Shown here: positions 2,613 to 31,347 of the stretch, piece by piece
Layout: every line of letters begins with the position of its first letter
Numbering within the stretch: position 1 is the first letter of the stretch
NCBI GenBank assembly: GCA_002697505.1
Contig: NZWA01000061.1
Coordinates: 10,973-43,296 of the forward strand
DNA from: Flavobacteriales bacterium
Lineage (GTDB): Bacteria; Bacteroidota; Bacteroidia; Flavobacteriales; BACL11
Direction of reading: 5' to 3'
Length of the DNA: 32,324 nucleotides
Position numbers and translations under genes: made by a program
Notes under the pieces: model-generated
The model's input: the letters and a program-made list of their open reading frames with translations, nothing else
Databases searched by the model: none
What the model was told of the DNA's origin: nothing

Positions 2613-3494
2613 TTACAGATTTACTAACATATCTAATAGTTCTTGTTGAGGGAACATATCAAATTTATCTTTTCTAGTATTAGTGTGAGTCCATAGCCCT
2701 TTTACTTTACCATAATAAGCATCTTCATTAAATTCAAATGCTTTAGCACCGTTCTTTTTAATTAAAGCTGGTAGTCCTGCTCTAACATCAATGTTATCTC
2801 TATCTGCTATGTGTAAGATTAATTTTCTTAAATTTTCTATTTGTTTATTTGAATATCTATGCCATTCACTAAATCCTCTAAATGGCTCGTTTAATTCAAC
2901 TATTTGTGAATCATCTGCTAATTGCCCAGCATATGTTCTTCCATTTTTTAAATACCCAAAATTATTAACTTCAATACCTACAGAATGTATATGCATATGT
3001 CTTGAACCATTTTTTCCTAAATGCCATCCAAAACCACCTTCTGGGAATGCTTGGACTACTTCTCCATCATATTTGTTGTCATTTCCTTTTATTGATTGAC
3101 CTCCTAATACAAATTCTGTTGCTACAGCACCTCTATTATCATTTGCCCAATGATCAATTGTATTATAAGGATTATGCCATCCTGCTGTGTGGTGTAAAAA
3201 TAAATATTCTTTATTCCAAGCTCCTTCTTTATATTCACCTACTGGGAGATAATGTTTATTAATAAGTAAACCATTTTCTGTTACGTATGATTTTTCAGCA
3301 TTATCAGTACTAGCGATACCCATTACATCTAATGTTTGAGGTCCTACTACACCATCTGCTACTAAACCATTTTCTGCTTGGAATTGTTTGACTGCTTTTT
3401 CTGTTCCAGGTCCAAATATCCCGTCAGCGTCGATTTCTAAAAATTCTTGGAGGTCTTTTACTTCAGCTCCTCTAGATCCTACTTTTAATATCAT
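2613..3494 (-). CDS. Endolysin: N-terminal peptidoglycan-binding domain plus N-acetylmuramoyl-L-alanine amidase (Amidase_2-like)
   Basis: N-term VGSRGAEVKDLQEFLEIDADGIFGPGTEKAVKQFQAENGLVADGVVGPQTL is a PG_binding_1 pattern; YLFLHHTAGWHNPYNTIDHW plus HSVGIEVNNFG are amidase_2-type. Confidence 0.88.
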   Translation of the reverse strand: MILKVGSRGAEVKDLQEFLEIDADGIFGPGTEKAVKQFQAENGLVADGVVGPQTLDVMGIASTDNAEKSYVTENGLLINKHYLPVGEYKEGAWNKEYLFLHHTAGWHNPYNTIDHWANDNRGAVATEFVLGGQSIKGNDNKYDGEVVQAFPEGGFGWHLGKNGSRHMHIHSVGIEVNNFGYLKNGRTYAGQLADDSQIVELNEPFRGFSEWHRYSNKQIENLRKLILHIADRDNIDVRAGLPALIKKNGAKAFEFNEDAYYGKVKGLWTHTNTRKDKFDMFPQQELLDMLVNL

Positions 3495-4147: not shown

Positions 4148-5227
4148 TTAAAATATTATATAATTTACACCCATTGAAAACTCATGCCATCTTCTATTCC
4201 AATATTTATTGTATTTACCTTCTGCAAATAACCCTAAAGATTTACTTAGTTTATAACCAAATATTAATCCTCCAGAATAATCAACCCATTGTCCTCCGTT
4301 ATAAGTATGGTAAGAATACTCATCAGCTGTTTTTACGTGGTAAGGCATTACATTACCCCACGCATGTGCCCAAAAGTTTTTTTCATAGTGATAAAAATCA
4401 GCACCTAATACAAAAGAATATTCTAATTTAAATGGAGCTTCATCTCTTTTCTTTTCTACATAATCTACTAATACTTGAGGAATTATTACTTCTTCCCAAA
4501 CAGCTGTACTAGTAGCAACTACATCACCTGAAGGATTTAAATATACTACATCACCAGGTCCATTAAAATTAACTTGATATCCTTCTTGGATAGCTAACCA
4601 AGTATAATGTAAATTTCCATTACTAAGTAACCATTCAGCTAATGGATCATAACCATAAGGTTCTGATAGTCTTTGGGCTGCTCCTAAATTTAATGAAAAT
4701 TTTTTATTTATATTATATCTATATCTTTGAGATGATTCAAAATATTCAACATCAACAAAACCATCTTTTAAATATTCTACTTTAGCTACCCAATCATTTG
4801 CTACATATCTTAAAAAATGATGTTGGTTAAAGTAATTTATACCTTGTATTCTTCTATAATCACCTTCAAATAAAAATTCAAATCCTTTTATTTTACCGAC
4901 TGTTGCATTATCACCTAAATGACCTTCTGTACCATCATAAAATACATTTTCTCTATTTTCGTAATCAAATCTAGCTATTTTTCTTACACCTGCTACTATA
5001 GAATAGTCAAATGGTGTTTCTACTACATCAGTAACTAATTGACCTGTATTTACTGTAAAGGTATTTCTGTCTGATAATGACGTTCCACCATTTACAGCTG
5101 CATAAAACGTAGAAAATTTAAATGTCTTTTTTAATTCTTTTTTAAATTCGGAGACTTTATCTACTTTTTCTTGACCAAAAACTACAGATGAGCAGAAAAT
5201 TAATATTAATAAAATTATCTTTTTCAT
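4148..5227 (-). CDS. Secreted outer-membrane beta-barrel protein (359 aa)
   Basis: Signal peptide MKKIILLILIFCSSVVFGQ; alternating amphipathic strands rich in Tyr/Phe/Trp; terminal strand HEFSMGVNYIIF ends in Phe, as typical for Gram-negative OMPs. Confidence 0.72.
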   Translation of the reverse strand: MKKIILLILIFCSSVVFGQEKVDKVSEFKKELKKTFKFSTFYAAVNGGTSLSDRNTFTVNTGQLVTDVVETPFDYSIVAGVRKIARFDYENRENVFYDGTEGHLGDNATVGKIKGFEFLFEGDYRRIQGINYFNQHHFLRYVANDWVAKVEYLKDGFVDVEYFESSQRYRYNINKKFSLNLGAAQRLSEPYGYDPLAEWLLSNGNLHYTWLAIQEGYQVNFNGPGDVVYLNPSGDVVATSTAVWEEVIIPQVLVDYVEKKRDEAPFKLEYSFVLGADFYHYEKNFWAHAWGNVMPYHVKTADEYSYHTYNGGQWVDYSGGLIFGYKLSKSLGLFAEGKYNKYWNRRWHEFSMGVNYIIF

Positions 5228-8932: not shown

Positions 8933-10684
8933 TTATCCATCACAAGATACACACTCTGCCATTCTTGATCCTAAATCACCTTTAATAACTGAATCTGTTC
9001 TTAAATAATAAAATGTTTTTATTCCTAATTTCCACCCTTCCATATGTACTTGATTTATCCATTTTGGTGAATCATTAGGATCAAAAGACAAGTTTAAAGA
9101 TTGGGTTTGATCAATATACCTTTGTCTTATAGCTGCTTGTCTTACTAATTCTAATTGGTTAGTTTCAGGGAATGTTAAAAATAATTCTTTTTCGTCTGGT
9201 GATAAAATTTCATCTGGGAGATTTTGAACTGAACCTCCATCTTGAAGCATTTGATCCCACCATTTTTGTTTATTTTCACCTTTTTCTTCTAATAATTTTT
9301 CTAATGATTTATTTTTTCTAATAAATGTACCTTTAGCACCATTAAAAGTGTAAATGTTAGCAGGTAAAGGTTCAATACCAGCTGATATACCCCCACAAAT
9401 AACAGAATTTGATACTGTGGGCGCTACTGCTAATAAATGAGTATTTCTCATACCTGTACCTCTACACCACATTGGTTCACCATATTCTTGAGCTAAATCC
9501 ATAGATGCTTTTTCAGCTTTACTACTAATATCTCTAAATATAGTATGTGTCCAAGCTGTAGATGCTATAGAATTAAATGGCAATCCTTTTTGTTGTAAAA
9601 ACGTATGCCAACCCATTACACCTAAACCTAATGCTCTACCTTTTTTAGCATGATTATGAGTTCTTCTTAATGAATCTTTACCATTTGATTTATCAATAAA
9701 TTCTTGCATTACACCATCTAAAAACCAAGTAGCTAATTCTACAGTATCTGTATCTTTCCACTCCTCATACTTAGCTAAGTTTAAAGATGATAAACAGCAA
9801 ATAAACGAATGTTCTTCATCTGTAAATAAAGTAATTTCAGAACAAATATTTGTCATTGAAACATCTAAATTATTTAATCTATATGCTATTGGGTTATCTT
9901 TATTAACATTATCCTTATACATGATATAAGGTTCACCTGTTTCCATTCTTGCTTTTAGTACAGTAGCCCAACGAGACATAGATTCAGGATCCCTAGCTTC
10001 TAGTTTTCTCATAAAATTGTCTCCTACAACTACACATTGGTGTAAATTTAAACATTGTCTATTAGGATCACCTTTAGGTCTTCTAATTTGTAAAAATTCA
10101 TCTATATCTGGATGTTCAATATCTAAATTAACTGATGCTGCTCCTCTTCTAACATTTCCTTGATTAGTAGCAATAATAGAAGAATCATAAATCTTACACC
10201 AAGGTACTACACCTTCTGATTTACCATTACCTGCTATTTCAGTTCCTCTAGGTCTAATTCTAGAAACACCAATTCCAACACCCCCACCTTTAGAAGTTAG
10301 TCTCATTAATTCAGCATTTGTTAATCCTATACCTCTAATAGAATCAGGAGTATCAATTCCATAACATGAAATTGGTAAACCTCTATCAGTACCCATATTA
10401 GAAATAACTGGTGAAGCTAAACCTAACCAACCATTCCAAATAATTTTATAGAATTTATTTTCTAAATCTGGTCTTTTAAGTCTAAATGCAGCTGCTTTAG
10501 CTACTCTTCTATAAGCTTTTTTTACATCTTCTCCTGGGAGTAAATATCCTTTAGATATTGTTGCTAAAGAAATTTCATCCATCCATTCTGGATAGTTTTT
10601 ACCTGCTTCCCAATTTGTATAATCTACTTGTAATGCGTTATTTTCCATATTAAAATATTGATGCGGCATCCCAATTTTGAACAC
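8933..10684 (-). CDS. nrdA: Ribonucleoside-diphosphate reductase alpha subunit, class I (NrdA-like)
   Basis: LTSKGGGVGIGVSRIRPRGTEIAGNGKSEG, NVRRGAASVNLDIEHPDIDEF, TNICSEI, CCLSSLNLAKYEEW, C-terminal CVSC. The true start may be ATG at 10648 (MENNALQVD), just after the nrdB stop. Confidence 0.95.
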   Translation of the reverse strand: MFKIGMPHQYFNMENNALQVDYTNWEAGKNYPEWMDEISLATISKGYLLPGEDVKKAYRRVAKAAAFRLKRPDLENKFYKIIWNGWLGLASPVISNMGTDRGLPISCYGIDTPDSIRGIGLTNAELMRLTSKGGGVGIGVSRIRPRGTEIAGNGKSEGVVPWCKIYDSSIIATNQGNVRRGAASVNLDIEHPDIDEFLQIRRPKGDPNRQCLNLHQCVVVGDNFMRKLEARDPESMSRWATVLKARMETGEPYIMYKDNVNKDNPIAYRLNNLDVSMTNICSEITLFTDEEHSFICCLSSLNLAKYEEWKDTDTVELATWFLDGVMQEFIDKSNGKDSLRRTHNHAKKGRALGLGVMGWHTFLQQKGLPFNSIASTAWTHTIFRDISSKAEKASMDLAQEYGEPMWCRGTGMRNTHLLAVAPTVSNSVICGGISAGIEPLPANIYTFNGAKGTFIRKNKSLEKLLEEKGENKQKWWDQMLQDGGSVQNLPDEILSPDEKELFLTFPETNQLELVRQAAIRQRYIDQTQSLNLSFDPNDSPKWINQVHMEGWKLGIKTFYYLRTDSVIKGDLGSRMAECVSCDG

Positions 10685-16083: not shown

Positions 16084-16557
16084 CTAAAGTTCAATAATTT
16101 TAAATATTTTTGTTTTCAATTGCTTTAACTCATCATGTTGAGTTAGGAGAATTGTATTCCTATAATGTTGCCAATCAATTGGAAATTTTGTATCTACAAC
16201 ACCCCCATTTAATCTTTTAATTAATTCGTTTAAAGCATTAATAGTGTATAAGGTGTTAGTATCTTTCTTACGATGAACCATTATGGTATTAGGAGGTAAA
16301 CCTTCAGTATTACCTTGTTCTATATTGTAAGTACAAACATACTCATCATTGCTTTTTATATGTAATACGAACACTTTTTTATAAAGAATAGAATAATTAT
16401 TAGTAATACGATCTAATAACGATTCCAATCCTTCAAGTGTTGTGAACTTACAAAATAGTTTATTATTCAAATCTACAAAGTTTAAGTTATTCAACTCCTG
16501 AAAGTCGTCTACAGTATACATATTGTAAGATTTATTTGAAATTGTAAGTGTCTCCAT
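16084..16557 (-). CDS. Hypothetical protein (157 aa)
   Basis: Complete ORF overlapping the end of the PolA-like gene by 26 nt, co-directional. Confidence 0.6.
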   Translation of the reverse strand: METLTISNKSYNMYTVDDFQELNNLNFVDLNNKLFCKFTTLEGLESLLDRITNNYSILYKKVFVLHIKSNDEYVCTYNIEQGNTEGLPPNTIMVHRKKDTNTLYTINALNELIKRLNGGVVDTKFPIDWQHYRNTILLTQHDELKQLKTKIFKIIEL

Positions 16558-24616: not shown

Positions 24617-24628
24617 ATTATAAATATT
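24617..24628 (-). promoter_or_regulatory. Candidate late-promoter-like motif
   Basis: Minus strand AATATTTATAAT, 23 nt before the ATG at 24594. Confidence 0.4.
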
Positions 24629-27359
24629 AACCAATTTTAGAAGTTGCTAAAGCCATTGATCTACCTGCTTTAGCACCATCAATGTAAACATCTCCACCTT
24701 TTTCTATAGCTGATGCTATTCTTTCTAGTAGTGTTATTACTTCTCCACTACCACCACCACCTAAATTAGTACCTCCTACTATAACATCATCAGCTCTAAA
24801 CTTTTGTATTGGTTGTCCTGGTCTTGAAATAAAATCTTCCGCTACATCACCTGATCCAAATAAATCTATTACAGCAGATCCTAATCCCTCAGCACCTATA
24901 GCATCTGCTAAAGCTCCACCAACCCATCTACCTAAAGCATCTCCAGCTAAAGCTCCTAAAAGAGTACCTACACCTGGGATAGGAATAAATGAACCTAAAA
25001 TTCCACCTAAAATTGAACCACCTATAGATCCTATAGCTTCAGCTGTTCTTTTTCCTACCATTTGATTTAATTTTGCTCCAGTTTCACCTGATCCTATCAT
25101 TGCTGAAATATCAGATGCTGCAAAAACACCTTCAATAGCTGTTCCAATTAATGGAATTTTTTTAGCTCCCGTTTTTAAGAAACTTCCAACATTTTTACTT
25201 AAGTACTCTTTAGCAGCATTTAAAGGATTTAATTTTGAAAAGAATTTACCTACTGATCCGAAAAATCCTTTACTTGCTCCTCCTGCTGCTGCTTTAGTAC
25301 CAGCTGAAGCTGTTGATTTAGCAGCTGTTGATGTTGCTGCTTTAGTACCTTCTTTAACTGCACCCCCAGTTCCACCTAATGCTTTAGGTAATTTAGATGC
25401 AGTTTTAGAAATACCACTTAAAGTACTTTTAATATTACTAAATATTTTTAAAGCACCTCCTATTCTACCAAATAATCTAAATGCAGCAATTCCTGCAACT
25501 ACTTTTGATATAGATGTTAAAACACCTTTCATAGATGATAGACCTTCAATACCATCCATTACAAAATCTAAAAACTTACCAAACATTTCAATAAGAGGAA
25601 CTAATTGATCTTTAAGTTTTATCATTGCATCTTCAAATCTTTTTGATGCTGCTTCAGCATGTAGTTGATTTGTTAATTGTTCAGCTCCAATTTTTCTTTG
25701 TTCTTCAGCTGTTATGACACCATCTTCCATTGCTTTATTATAAGCTTCTGTTGCTTCTGTCATTGATTTAGATTCACCATTTAAAAGCTCTTGAGTTTCT
25801 AAAGTTTTAGCTAATTCCTCTCTTGACATTCCAAAAGCTTTAGCTAATGAATTTTGTTGAAGAACATTCATCGCACCAAATTCAGCAGCTGTACCAATTT
25901 CATTTTGAATTGCTTTAGCTAATCCTTCTTGATCGCCCATTAAAGCAGCTCTTCTAGCTTCTTCTAAATTTAACTGTTTACCAGTCATTAATTCAGCTTC
26001 CATTTCAGCCGCAATAGAAGATTCAAAATCTAATAAACTATTACTAGTATTTTCTAATTGTTGTTGGCTTAATCCTAATTTAGCTGATTGGAAAGCTGCG
26101 TTAGCTAATGATTTACCTTGACCTTCCATTGTTAATCTATTAGCTGCGCTAATATTACCTATATCAGCAAATATTGCTTGTTGGTTTACTGCTACTCCTT
26201 CTTGTTCGGCTAAGACTGCTATTTGCCCTCTTAATTCATTTGTAAAATCTTCAGCGCTTTCACCTCTTATTTTTGCTGATTTTATAAATTGTGCTGCTTG
26301 CTCATTAGTTAGTCCAAATTCATTAGATAATAATGAAAAAGTTTTTAATTCTGAAGCTGTTAACTTAATAGATAATCCTACCTGTTCGTTAAATTCTTGT
26401 ATTCCTTTTACAGCATCAGCAATATTAAAGTGAAGTTCACCACTATTATTAGCAGCAAAATTTAACTCTGTTTTTAGCTGATTAGCATCACTTCTTCCTA
26501 AACCAAAAGTTTTAGCTAAATCTTCTCTTGCGGCACCAAATTCTTTTAAACCTTTTTTAAACCCTTTAAAAACTGCAACATCAAAGGCAGCCCCTAATTC
26601 TTTACTAAATATTTTAGCACCATCAGTAAGGGTTTTAGATAGTACTTTTGCTTTTATTTGTGAATCTGAAAGATTTTCCTCCCCATTAGCTAATTCTTCA
26701 GCATAGTCTCTAGCTCCTTGTTCTAATTCTTTAAATTTATCAGAACCTATATTTAAACCTATTTTCTTTAAAATCCCTGATGCCCCATCTAACGCTTGAC
26801 CTGTTAAACCTGTTAACTCAGTAATTTTTTGTTCTTCCTTTATTCTTTTTTTAGTTTGAGCTATAATATCTTCTTGAACTTTATATTCAGATTTTAAATT
26901 AGCTAAAATTGCTTCTTCAACTTCTGATAGTTCTTCTTTGCTTTCAAGCTCTTGTCTTATTAATTCTAAACGTTTTTTCTCTTGTTTAGCTTGAGTTAGG
27001 ATGAGGTCAAGGTCTTTTTCTCTAAGTTTAGTTATATCATTTACATCATCTGAGAGTTTTTGTGCTAAACTTTTTAATTTAGAAAATGATTTAGTTGCTT
27101 CTTTAGCAGGATCGGCAAATCCTGGTTTCCATTCTCTAACTATATTTTTAATAGATTCAGCTATTCCACCAAACCCATCATCAAGATCAATTGCTGCTAC
27201 TCTAGCTTCTTGTAAATACTGATTTAATAGTTCTATATCTTCAACCCCAGCAGCATTTATATCAATTTCAATTTTATCCTTACCTAATCTAGAATAAATT
27301 TTATTTATCTCAGCAAGATCTTTCCTAAGTTGTTGTATTTGTTTTGGATCTAAAGCCAT
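24627..27359 (-). CDS. Tail tape measure protein (910 aa)
   Basis: Length, extensive helical/coiled-coil segments, hydrophobic Gly/Ala-rich C-terminal region (AEAIGSIGGSILGGILGSFIPIPGVGTLLGALAGDALG); position after tube and chaperone-like genes. Confidence 0.8.
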   Translation of the reverse strand: MALDPKQIQQLRKDLAEINKIYSRLGKDKIEIDINAAGVEDIELLNQYLQEARVAAIDLDDGFGGIAESIKNIVREWKPGFADPAKEATKSFSKLKSLAQKLSDDVNDITKLREKDLDLILTQAKQEKKRLELIRQELESKEELSEVEEAILANLKSEYKVQEDIIAQTKKRIKEEQKITELTGLTGQALDGASGILKKIGLNIGSDKFKELEQGARDYAEELANGEENLSDSQIKAKVLSKTLTDGAKIFSKELGAAFDVAVFKGFKKGLKEFGAAREDLAKTFGLGRSDANQLKTELNFAANNSGELHFNIADAVKGIQEFNEQVGLSIKLTASELKTFSLLSNEFGLTNEQAAQFIKSAKIRGESAEDFTNELRGQIAVLAEQEGVAVNQQAIFADIGNISAANRLTMEGQGKSLANAAFQSAKLGLSQQQLENTSNSLLDFESSIAAEMEAELMTGKQLNLEEARRAALMGDQEGLAKAIQNEIGTAAEFGAMNVLQQNSLAKAFGMSREELAKTLETQELLNGESKSMTEATEAYNKAMEDGVITAEEQRKIGAEQLTNQLHAEAASKRFEDAMIKLKDQLVPLIEMFGKFLDFVMDGIEGLSSMKGVLTSISKVVAGIAAFRLFGRIGGALKIFSNIKSTLSGISKTASKLPKALGGTGGAVKEGTKAATSTAAKSTASAGTKAAAGGASKGFFGSVGKFFSKLNPLNAAKEYLSKNVGSFLKTGAKKIPLIGTAIEGVFAASDISAMIGSGETGAKLNQMVGKRTAEAIGSIGGSILGGILGSFIPIPGVGTLLGALAGDALGRWVGGALADAIGAEGLGSAVIDLFGSGDVAEDFISRPGQPIQKFRADDVIVGGTNLGGGGSGEVITLLERIASAIEKGGDVYIDGAKAGRSMALATSKIG

Positions 27360-27396: not shown

Positions 27397-27708
27397 CTAT
27401 TTTTTAGCCCTTTTTGTTACATAAGAGGGAGGTTGAATAGTTTGTGGTGGAGCATTTTTAGTTGGTTGGTTTAAATCTATTTGAGTACTATTTCCTTTAG
27501 AAGCTTTTTTAGTTGCTTCTGCTTGTTCGTCATAATACTTTTTTAATTTATTAAAAGTGAATGTACACAACCATGTAGGCATGTTGTAAACTGTTTCCCA
27601 GTCGTAACCACCGTTACCATGAAATACAATTTCGTGTATAGTATTAAATAAATTTATTCTTATTTTGGAAGCATTATCCAGCGTCAGGCCAAAAAAAGCT
27701 AAGCCCAA
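27397..27708 (-). CDS. Small ORF immediately upstream of the tape measure, overlapping the gp26-like gene; only a TTG start in the overlap; possible frameshift extension
   Basis: Open in the +1 frame relative to the 244-aa ORF from 27750 down to 27397; the only start is TTG at 27708 and the next in-frame ATG is at residue 43. Confidence 0.6.
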   Translation of the reverse strand: MGLAFFGLTLDNASKIRINLFNTIHEIVFHGNGGYDWETVYNMPTWLCTFTFNKLKKYYDEQAEATKKASKGNSTQIDLNQPTKNAPPQTIQPPSYVTKRAKK

Positions 27709-28408
27709 TTGGGATTGTAACGTCGTAGCTTGAGCCGTCGGGAAAAAAAGTTAGATCAACATCAGGTTGAACTAATTTAATATAATTCCTTAACGCCCTG
27801 GAATCTTGGGCTAAAAGGAAGTTATCTACAAACTCCCTGACTCCTTTCTTATCTGGGTTGCCATTAACGGCTGTAATAATATATTTTAAACGAGTTGATA
27901 ATTCAGGACTAGCATCTTTATTAATCTTTTTAAGGCCTTGTAATTCTCTTTCAATTGATCTTTCATCTCTACCATCAAGAATTTTAAATGAGATTTTTGT
28001 TCCAGTCTTTGGAAGCTCATAATCAAATTCATTTTTACCTTTTGTAATAACACTTTCATCAAATGGTTTATTTTCAAGAGTTGATAAATCAACTGTTTGT
28101 TTTTCTCCTTCATATTCAAATTCATAAGTAGATCCATAACCTAAAATACGTGCTGCTATTAATAAAGCATTTTTATCTCCAACAATTAAATCATCATATT
28201 TAATATTTTTATCAACTATAAGAGATTGTAATAATTTATCTAATACAATTCCTTTTTTAATGTATGATTGATTAGTTAAAATATCCTCTTCTTTAGCAGT
28301 CATATATTTTATTTCTACTTTTCCAGAAGATAATGGATTGTCTTCAGAATATAACAATCCTTTTGAGGGTAATTCTACTTGTTCAGTAGGTAATTTAAAT
28401 TCGCTCAT
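27674..28408 (-). CDS. T4 gp26-like (PF12322-type) baseplate/tail assembly protein (244 aa)
   Basis: FKLPTEQVELPSKGLLYSEDNPLSSGKVEIKYMTAKEEDILTNQ...KNALLIAARILGYGSTYEFE, typical of the T4-type gp26 family. Confidence 0.7.
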   Translation of the reverse strand: MSEFKLPTEQVELPSKGLLYSEDNPLSSGKVEIKYMTAKEEDILTNQSYIKKGIVLDKLLQSLIVDKNIKYDDLIVGDKNALLIAARILGYGSTYEFEYEGEKQTVDLSTLENKPFDESVITKGKNEFDYELPKTGTKISFKILDGRDERSIERELQGLKKINKDASPELSTRLKYIITAVNGNPDKKGVREFVDNFLLAQDSRALRNYIKLVQPDVDLTFFPDGSSYDVTIPIGLSFFWPDAG

Positions 28409-28456: not shown

Positions 28457-28490
28457 AAAAAAAAGCTTGACCGAAGCCAAGCTATTTTTA
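28457..28490 (-). terminator. Intrinsic terminator downstream of the tail tube gene
   Basis: Minus strand ...AGCTTGGC-TTCG-GTCAAGCT-TTTTTTT: 8-bp stem (one G-U), UUCG tetraloop, run of T. Confidence 0.82.
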
Positions 28491-28508: not shown

Positions 28509-28997
28509 TTAGAAATTCAATACGCAGTAATCCATTCCAATTGTTAAATCGATGTTTTGAGCTTCACCATCAGTATCCCAGTTCATGTCTGCAAATGATC
28601 CATCTTTAATAAATGCACCTTTTATAATCCATTCTGATACTACATCACCTACTGGTCCTAATACATCAATTGTTAAATCTTTCTTATAGAAATCAGAGTA
28701 ACCAGCTCTACCTGTTACTGATTCATAATGTAATCTAACCCATTCCATTACTGCTTGAGCACCTGAAGGAGTAATTGGATCAAATAATTGCATTGTGATG
28801 TCATTCCATCTCAATTTGCCTTTTACTTTTCTATAAGTATTAATATGGTTTAGTACAATTTCATCTTGTGCAAATCCTATTCCACTTACACCTTTAATGA
28901 TATAAGATGGGAATCCGTCAACATACATTACAAACCTATTTGCTACTTTGGGCTCAAAAGCTGTGAAAAATATTTCGTTTGGGTCTAATACTGCCAT
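28509..28997 (-). CDS. Tail tube protein, T4 gp19-like
   Basis: NRFVMYVDGFPSYIIKGVSGIGF, KLRWNDITMQLFDPITPSGAQAVMEWVRLHYE; adjacent to sheath. Confidence 0.88.
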   Translation of the reverse strand: MAVLDPNEIFFTAFEPKVANRFVMYVDGFPSYIIKGVSGIGFAQDEIVLNHINTYRKVKGKLRWNDITMQLFDPITPSGAQAVMEWVRLHYESVTGRAGYSDFYKKDLTIDVLGPVGDVVSEWIIKGAFIKDGSFADMNWDTDGEAQNIDLTIGMDYCVLNF

Positions 28998-29052: not shown

Positions 29053-31347
29053 TTATGCAGGGAACTCAGCTCCTGTTGGAAGAATATTGAAATCTAGGTA
29101 AATAAATTCTGCCGTTTTAGTCGGTTGAATGTATATAGCACCTCTTAATTCGTTTCTATCAATTACCTCAGGTCCATTATTTGAATCATTCATTACAACT
29201 TTAAACGCATATAAACCTTGTCTTTGTTGTACAGACTCTAAATATGGGTTAACTTGTCCTAAGAATACATTTCTAGTTGCAGCTGTATTTTGTTCAAATA
29301 CTAAGTTATCTGAAATCTGTGAAATGAAATTCTTAAGGGCAATTAACAATCTTCTTACATTTACTCTATCTAAAGCTGATGCTTGTGTTTGTAGTGTTTT
29401 CTGTCCAAATACTACAACTCCTCTTCCTGGGAATGTAGCAATTGGGTTAACTTTACCTACATATAAAGTATCTCTGTTAGATTGAGTTAATTTTCTTTCT
29501 GCTTGAACTACTACTCCTAATCCACCTCTGTTTATACCTGCTGGTGCAAACCAAGCTTCTGCTGTTCTATCATTAGCTGCATAAACACCTGGGATTAATG
29601 TTGAAGCTGGAACCCAAACTCTTTGTCCTGAATCTGGATCAGTTACCATACACCAAGGCCAATATGCTGCTGCATATGAAGTATCTAAACTTGCTGCTGT
29701 AGTTGTAGTTGCTGTTATTGATGAATTATAAGCTTCAAGATCTAGTACAATTATATTATCACCTCTATCTTCAGTATTTGAAATTAAAGTGTTTGTTGTT
29801 GAACTATAATCTGATTGATATAATCCTGGAACTGAAATTATATTGTATTGGTAATCATCTTTATTTGCTAATAAATTAATAGCATCTGTATAATTTCCTC
29901 CTACTAATCCTTGAGTATCAGTTCCATTAATTTCTTGATAATATTTTCCTTGTCCAGTTAATATTGATCCTTGAGCATCTCCAAATGAACCAGAACCTGC
30001 TACTGGGATTGAAGCTGTAAATTGTGATTTTGCATTTCCACTATTATCTAGGTAATCTGGAGTTTTGTAATTTACTTGTTTTACTCTTACATATCTTGAA
30101 GCGTTAGCATAAGATCCAGTTGTTTGTAAATATGGCTCTGAAGTTCCAGATCCTAATAATGTTTCTGTTTGGTCACCAATTATTCTTGAAATATAATTTG
30201 ATGCTTTTGGATCTAATGAAACGTTATTAAAGCTTTCAAGTACTGATTTTGCTCTTGTTGTATCATTACCTCTTCTGATTATTACACTAAATGTACCAGA
30301 TGAAGTGTTTGGTGAAGCAATTTCCCATCTTAAATTATCATTAGTACCAGTTGAAATAGCACCTTGAGAATTTAATGTTCCTGCATTATTCATAATTTCA
30401 CCTTGACCAATTGTTTCTAATACGAAAGCAGCGTCATCTGTAATATTAGCATCTACTAATGTAAATGTTAAATCTGTATCTGCATTACCAATATCAGCTT
30501 TAGCTACTGTAATTGTATTACCTACTGCATAACCTGATACTGAACCTGAAGTTACAATAGCTGTTGGTTTAACATGCAAATCACCTGCTCCAATTGTAAT
30601 TGTTAAATCAGCACCACCAGCACCAGTACCACTACCCATTACAGATTGTGAAGTTACTGTTAATGTATCACCAGTTGCATATCCTGAACCTGTTGATACT
30701 GCTATAATACTATCAATTGTTGTAGCATCTGAACACGTAACAGCAAATGTTGCACCTGATCCAGCACCTGAAGTTGCTGATTGAGAAACTAGGTAACTAG
30801 CTGCAACTGCATTTGTTGGAGCTGAAACTGTTGGAATTGCACTTTGGCTAAATTGACCACTTGCTGACGTAGCTGTAACATTTACTTTTAATCCTGATCC
30901 ATCACCACCTGTAGTAGATACGTCATCGAATTGTCCTGCTGTTCCATCATTACCTGTATCTACAGTTAATTGTGAAAATACGTTTGTTCCATCTGGAATG
31001 TCACCACTTTCTACGTCGTTAAATATCGTTGATGAAGTTGCTGCTGTAAATGAACCAGAAGCTACTCTAGTAACAATTAAAGAAGTACCTCCATTTTGGA
31101 AATAATTGTAAGCTGATATAGATGTTAAAAATGTATATTCTTCCTTTTGGTTTGTAGAACCACTTTCAAAAGTAGTACCAAAATTAGCTTGATACTCACT
31201 ATAAGAAGTAATAAGCTTAGGAATATTTACTCGACCCTTTACTGTAGGTCCAATTAGTGCTGCACCAGCCTGTATTGGTTGAGAAGTTATTTGAGATTGA
31301 TCATTTTCTCTCGCTAATACTCCTGGGGAAATTAATGTTTCTGCCAT
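29053..31347 (-). CDS. Contractile tail sheath protein, T4 gp18-like (764 aa)
   Basis: N-term SPGVLARENDQSQITSQPIQAGAALIGPTVKGRVNIPKLITSYSEYQANFG; C-term RNVFLGQVNPYLESVQQRQGLYAFKVVMNDSNNGPEVIDRNELRGAIYIQPTKTAEFIYLDFNILPTGA. Confidence 0.93.
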   Translation of the reverse strand: MAETLISPGVLARENDQSQITSQPIQAGAALIGPTVKGRVNIPKLITSYSEYQANFGTTFESGSTNQKEEYTFLTSISAYNYFQNGGTSLIVTRVASGSFTAATSSTIFNDVESGDIPDGTNVFSQLTVDTGNDGTAGQFDDVSTTGGDGSGLKVNVTATSASGQFSQSAIPTVSAPTNAVAASYLVSQSATSGAGSGATFAVTCSDATTIDSIIAVSTGSGYATGDTLTVTSQSVMGSGTGAGGADLTITIGAGDLHVKPTAIVTSGSVSGYAVGNTITVAKADIGNADTDLTFTLVDANITDDAAFVLETIGQGEIMNNAGTLNSQGAISTGTNDNLRWEIASPNTSSGTFSVIIRRGNDTTRAKSVLESFNNVSLDPKASNYISRIIGDQTETLLGSGTSEPYLQTTGSYANASRYVRVKQVNYKTPDYLDNSGNAKSQFTASIPVAGSGSFGDAQGSILTGQGKYYQEINGTDTQGLVGGNYTDAINLLANKDDYQYNIISVPGLYQSDYSSTTNTLISNTEDRGDNIIVLDLEAYNSSITATTTTAASLDTSYAAAYWPWCMVTDPDSGQRVWVPASTLIPGVYAANDRTAEAWFAPAGINRGGLGVVVQAERKLTQSNRDTLYVGKVNPIATFPGRGVVVFGQKTLQTQASALDRVNVRRLLIALKNFISQISDNLVFEQNTAATRNVFLGQVNPYLESVQQRQGLYAFKVVMNDSNNGPEVIDRNELRGAIYIQPTKTAEFIYLDFNILPTGAEFPA

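Follow-up and report, generated by a model that had tools for sequence, protein, structure and literature searches.

The window analysed here, a stretch of 32,324 nucleotides, belongs to a contig of 43,296 bases in an 89-contig genome of 1.98 Mb, and carries on its minus strand phage tail genes in the order sheath (29053-31347), tail tube, G and T, and tape measure. The gp19-like tail tube gene (28509..28997) matches phrog_4542, tail tube, at 1.6e-20 and PF06841 at 0.0005, below the PF06841 cut-off, and is followed by a terminator-like hairpin with a T tail (28464..28483) that separates it from G. The G gene (27674..28408) is an ORF of 244 amino acids in phrog_150, which we label TAC-N, the putative short form of a gp26-family tail assembly chaperone (TAC), and an identical G protein was found in an IMG/VR contig. 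Overlapping the end of G is the T ORF of 103 amino acids (27397..27708), with TTG as its only start; the part kept in close relatives (27397..27690) bears the motif GGYDWxTVYNMPxWLRxF and would form the 97-amino acid, +1-frame C-terminal extension of a long form. Directly downstream lies a gene for 910 amino acids (24627..27359), assigned by position and length as that of the tape measure protein, the presumed client; its PHROG matches have no assigned function, and its counterpart in immuto and SP-15 carries a tape measure annotation. G and T are thus found between tube and tape measure, the position that marks TAC genes. Rfam and tRNA scans of the window gave no matches. Elsewhere in the window, an nrdA-like ORF with a GTG start overlaps the end of nrdB by 35 nt (10650-10684), and its N-terminus may be short, because its RNR profile match begins at position 203 of 975; two ORFs of 419 and 157 amino acids without family matches overlap by 26 nt in different frames (16532-16557).

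Two T7 runs lie near the 3' end of G on the minus strand, at 27749..27743 and 27697..27691, where an earlier sequence-only reading had placed them, and its account of the frames also stands: in +1 a TAA (27753..27751) closes the frame before the first run and no further stop occurs until a TAG (27399..27397), and the only start of the 103-amino acid ORF, the TTG, falls inside the overlap. The gene ends AGC TTT TTT TGG CCT GAC GCT GGA TAA, so that the second run is read in the zero frame as TTT TTT TGG (FFW), and after a +1 slip at this run the reading is GGC CTG ACG CTG GAT AAT and onward to the TAG, giving 239 + 97 = 336 amino acids, the fusion length already calculated. The stretch just past the run, GGCCTGACGCTGGA (27677..27690), would be dual-coded, as WPDAG in frame 0 and as GLTL.. 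in frame +1.

Approximately 350 relatives were compared, taken from IMG/VR scans (four with different G proteins at 80 loci each, and two more that gave 1 and 20) and from the phage records of immuto, Mel-JY01, two huge uncultured phages, GXN1, SP-15, LIS04, Bellamy and KVP40; T was found in 345 loci by a T-domain profile, and the statistics for the +1 clade refer to 133 non-redundant loci. Relative to G, T is in the +1 frame in 95/95 loci obtained with the window query, 85/87 with immuto, 62/62 with Mel-JY01 and 15/15 T-bearing loci with L003, as well as in SP-15, LIS04 and GXN1; in KVP40 and every one of the 81 Bellamy-type loci it is in −1. T in +1 also accompanies a UUU-Y site in MAG copies drawn from several phyla (protein identity 35-64%), with one exception (L364), and in a tree of G, some rows of which carry long-branch warnings, the +1 clade is separate from T4, the cyanophages and KVP40 with support of 100/99. 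The exception is one MAG contig of 1.1 kb inside the +1 clade (L364, 134-850), which reads GGT TTT TTT TGG CCG GAT, with eight Ts, and has T in −1, a possible direction switch or else an error. In two other loci (L344 and L349) T lies in −1 and carries its own ATG just past the G stop, and UUU-Y is gone (TTC TTG, TTC CTT), and L253 has a T TTT TTC site with T in −1; these exceptional loci fit a joint change of site and frame, but they are few. Also, L003 has an ATG inside the overlap, and L244 (1501-2229) has one stop codon within the extracted G reading frame, either an error or a broken copy.

A comparison of homologues, which the sequence-only reading had proposed as a check, finds the T7 run and the open +1 frame in every close relative of the window, and because both recur and the site codons are invariant, the site is not a product of chance. 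More widely in the +1 set the site takes the forms TTT TTT TGG, TTT TTT TAT/TAC, TTT CTT TGG, TTT CTA TGG and TTC TTT TGG, with TTC TTT CGT in GXN1, TTT TTT CAC in SP-15 and TTT TTT AGT in LIS04, and what all 133 non-redundant loci share (133/133) is a zero-frame UUU followed by U or C. At the FF position the codon is TTT for 236/236 Phe codons, against ~80% over these genes; CCT follows the run in 131/131 cases, against ~42% of Pro codons in the same genes, and GAC is used at the site in 85/85, against ~25% of Asp codons. Frame 0 leaves the last base of CCT and of GAC open, but in +1 these bases determine Leu and Thr, so that the +1 product would come under selection right after the run. Furthermore, the dN/dS of T is 0.16 in the +1 frame (0.13 for indel-free pairs) and 1.24 and 1.97 in the other two frames, for pairs picked by the dS of G (picking by T-region dS biases the estimate), so that T is, on these estimates, under purifying selection in the +1 frame only. 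No ATG, GTG or TTG is present from the upstream +1 stop to 60 nt beyond the site in 31 unique loci, and in several of these start-less loci the +1 stop sits 5 nt before the run, ending two bases ahead of it. The first T7 run was also considered as the slip site and rejected, because in many relatives the +1 frame is closed by a stop that falls after the first run and ahead of the second, at the closest by 5 nt. Near the +1 sites, downstream RNA structure is at the control level (z −0.55 vs −0.53), and no SD-like element above control was detected upstream. The comparison of genomes demonstrates a kept site, a kept +1 frame, a selected +1 product and, in many loci, the lack of any other start, and a programmed frameshift that takes place at the second T7 run and fuses a gp26-family protein with the T domain is strongly supported by these comparative data; of the two directions first offered for it, +1 is favoured over −2, for reasons that lie in the variant sites.

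The canonical −1 arrangement, X XXY YYZ with the second ORF in the −1 frame, is not what is found, as T lies in +1, and a −1 reading of T was rejected because 113/133 loci share an early −1-frame stop two codons further on. Both T TTT TTT and T TTT TTC belong to the standard −1 heptamers, which would account for the codon before the run ending in T in 3/133 loci of the +1 clade vs 66.9 expected, and in 68/68 of the cyanophage −1 loci vs 41.1 expected; it is as if −1 slipping in the +1 clade were avoided through codon choice. Phage Mu uses a −2 frameshift, and the same fusion could arise in that manner with 337 amino acids and one additional Phe, since at T7 sites of the window type tRNA-Phe pairs equally well two bases back and the resulting frame is identical, so that the choice between +1 and −2 leans on the variants in relatives. 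At TTC TTT TGG, the site in most of the L334-L348 group, and at TTC TTT CGT (L004) a −2 move would need UUU->UCU, a middle-base mismatch, and it fails at TTT CTA TGG as well, whereas moving +1 to UUU or UUC works at all sites and the frame of T is unchanged at all of these. In other words, at TTC TTT T, TTC TTT C and TTT CTA T re-pairing of tRNA-Phe is possible at +1 and impossible at −2, and because these sites re-pair at +1 only, the +1 shift is preferred and a −2 shift appears very unlikely.

Alternatively, T could be a gene in its own right, with translation beginning at the TTG (27708) or another codon within G, perhaps by translational coupling, with no fusion made at all. The window overlap does contain that TTG, T4 gene 26 carries an annotated internal product, 26', and ATGs occur in the L003 overlap and right after the G stop in L344 and L349; however, the TTG is not conserved, the 31 start-less loci provide no ATG, GTG or TTG, and both loci in which T is out of +1 with its own ATG have lost UUU-Y (TTC CTT, TTC TTG). 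Independent initiation would also leave unexplained the invariant UUU-Y, the codon selection on GLT and the avoidance of a T-ending codon, and we regard it as distinctly improbable. Slippage of RNA polymerase at the T7 run, giving fusion-encoding transcripts with six or nine U, is a rival for which a T7 homopolymer in an A+T-rich genome provides a natural setting, and the avoidance of T8 could likewise limit such slippage; it is nevertheless implausible, with only a slight chance of being correct, because TTTCTTT-type runs are short: in 28/133 loci the site is TTTCTT or TTTCTA, where the T runs are three long, and in 4/133 it is TTCTTTT, with a run of four, T being still in +1 in both groups, and some short-run loci have no start codon for T. 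Finally, homopolymers are error-prone, but a sequencing error or decayed gene hiding a single continuous ORF has a negligible chance and is excluded because the same frame break recurs, with several site sequences, across hundreds of independent contigs and in the isolates immuto, Mel-JY01 and SP-15.

As to which proteins are joined by the +1 shift, window G matches PHROG 150 at 5e-8 and its relatives L001 and L002 do so at 8e-9 and 9e-12, and T4 gp26 and gp51 are also phrog_150. Pfam PF12322 gave no match for window G, L001 or L002, so window G is filed as a distant relative rather than a Pfam member; L004, from the same +1 clade, matches PF12322 at 4e-25. Direct profile matches of window G to gp51 and to T4 gp26 alone are both weak, as is that of window-type T to gp51; window-type T is linked to cyanophage T (hhalign 93.6%) and cyanophage T to the gp51 C-terminus (hhalign 95.6%). 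The AF2 model of G (pLDDT 94.1) matches gp26-family models such as that of SP-15, and by Foldseek against the PDB the HK97 TAC 2ob9 has the top probability among the matches listed, 0.54, at an E of 0.53, which is not significant. The model of T is a small helical domain for which Foldseek returned no significant match among viral models, and a PDB sequence search with G and T profiles produced no useful match. Gene order, homology and the weak HK97 fold match together suggest that G and GT are tail assembly chaperones.

In lambda-type TACs the slip is usually −1, at a heptamer such as GGGAAAG. Set beside lambda G/GT by description, the window likewise has two frames that overlap between the genes for tube and tape measure, and it would share the slip near the end of the first ORF and the short and long forms, but the slip would be +1 at UUU-Y instead of −1 at a heptamer. 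Bacterial RF2 (prfB) is made by a +1 frameshift at CUU UGA. The window type resembles it in the proposed P-site slip from NUU to UUU, with immuto-type sites reading CUU UGG, and differs in that the A site holds no stop codon and no upstream SD-like signal was detected at the +1 sites. Tail assembly chaperones with a programmed frameshift were reportedly treated by Xu, Hendrix and Duda in 2004. A forward shift in a TAC gene is likewise proposed for the haloarchaeal myovirus HSTV-2, 'very likely +1' (PMC5009743), which we compare by description, and the same 2016 review calls the G-T frameshift widely conserved 'except T4'. The G/GT frameshift device is real, widespread and already known in kind, taking an unusual, forward-slipping form here, and the T4 link is not new either, because the T4 tail assembly chaperones were assigned by Vladimirov, Gautam and Davidson (2022), as that work is cited in PMC10885494 and PMC12846349. 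From the same source, as relayed by these papers, come a short gene plus a fused long gene in some T4-like phages (PMC10885494) and poly-T −1 signals in T4-like phages (PMC12846349).

The sequence-only reading knew of no fusion for the T4 gp26 family; this did not survive, as gp26 and gp51 are, by these accounts of Vladimirov 2022, short and long TACs, and a −1 version is visible in cyanophages and KVP40. The window shares with T4 a G in phrog_150 and, in gp51, a T-like C-terminus, and differs in that T4 has its short and long forms as two genes whereas the window has one gene and a probable frameshift. In RB43 (L354, 1501-2794) a gp51-like gene and a probable gp26, named by position, stand in tandem with a short overlap, and this may reflect a duplication behind the separate G and GT genes of T4. 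Cyanophage and vibriophage gp51 is described as being without about 200 N-terminal amino acids (Sullivan 2010, PMC3037559), and cyanophages of the Bellamy type and KVP40, with gp26 and a short 'gp51', have homologous G and T in the same place and a poly-T site; unlike in the window with its +1, T is in −1 there, the site reads T TTT TTC in 79/79 unique loci, and in nearly all loci T has an ATG of its own. In the cyanophage-type loci L090 and L254-L333 the gp26-like gene ends NNT TTT TTC and T is open in −1. An SD-like sequence is found upstream in 51/68 of the cyanophage −1 sites, an enrichment that may reflect a conserved Glu-Gly pair, and downstream structure is above control. Judged by its sequence, the cyanophage-type site resembles a canonical −1 site through which gp26 would be fused to the short 'gp51'.

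Now considering all of the above, the T4-related phage in the window probably makes two forms of one tail assembly helper by a single-base forward skip at a T7 run; that this is its TAC gene, with a +1 slip of a minority of ribosomes leading to GT, we hold to be highly probable; we infer that a slip occurs, that it goes +1, how efficient it is and that the products act as chaperones. The majority of ribosomes would translate G (244 amino acids, TAC-N) and terminate, and in a minority at AGC UUU UUU UGG the P-site tRNA-Phe, paired with the second UUU, would move +1, from UUU to UUU, after which reading as GGC CUG AC... would produce GT (336 amino acids, TAC-NC). Reasoning from lambda G/GT, one would expect the G portion to coat the tape measure protein of the adjacent gene and the T portion to bring in tail tube subunits, neither of them remaining in the virion. 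In immuto, the tryptic junction peptide of GT would be FFPEDGPDGGVDIPIGVSF(L or F)GLTPEYR, with L for a slip on CUU and F for one on the preceding UUU.

What we add is the clade-wide +1 version, whose form and spread are, Vladimirov 2022 aside, not described in the literature examined. It is rather likely that a large clade of contractile-tailed phages apart from T4, the cyanophages and KVP40 uses a +1 slip of tRNA-Phe at a minimal UUU-Y without detectable RNA stimulators, that its homologues slip −1, and that the direction was switched within one family; opposite slips in homologous clades would mean that the shift direction switched in evolution, by a handful of bases, and, if this is true, the codon choices of each clade suit its own shift direction. 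In the isolate phage records examined the T ORF is truncated, separate or absent and the joined product is never annotated (L001 at 4839-4949, L088 at 3321-3440 and L089 after 3229 have a T fragment or nothing annotated), and such unjoined entries show why annotations miss the long chaperone. Programmed +1 shifts in phages are much rarer than −1 shifts. For forward shifts no general motif has been identified, according to the authors of PRFect (PMC10885494), and the hundreds of naturally occurring variants of a single +1 site in this clade, together with the −1 relatives as controls, would make the sequence rules of forward slipping directly testable.
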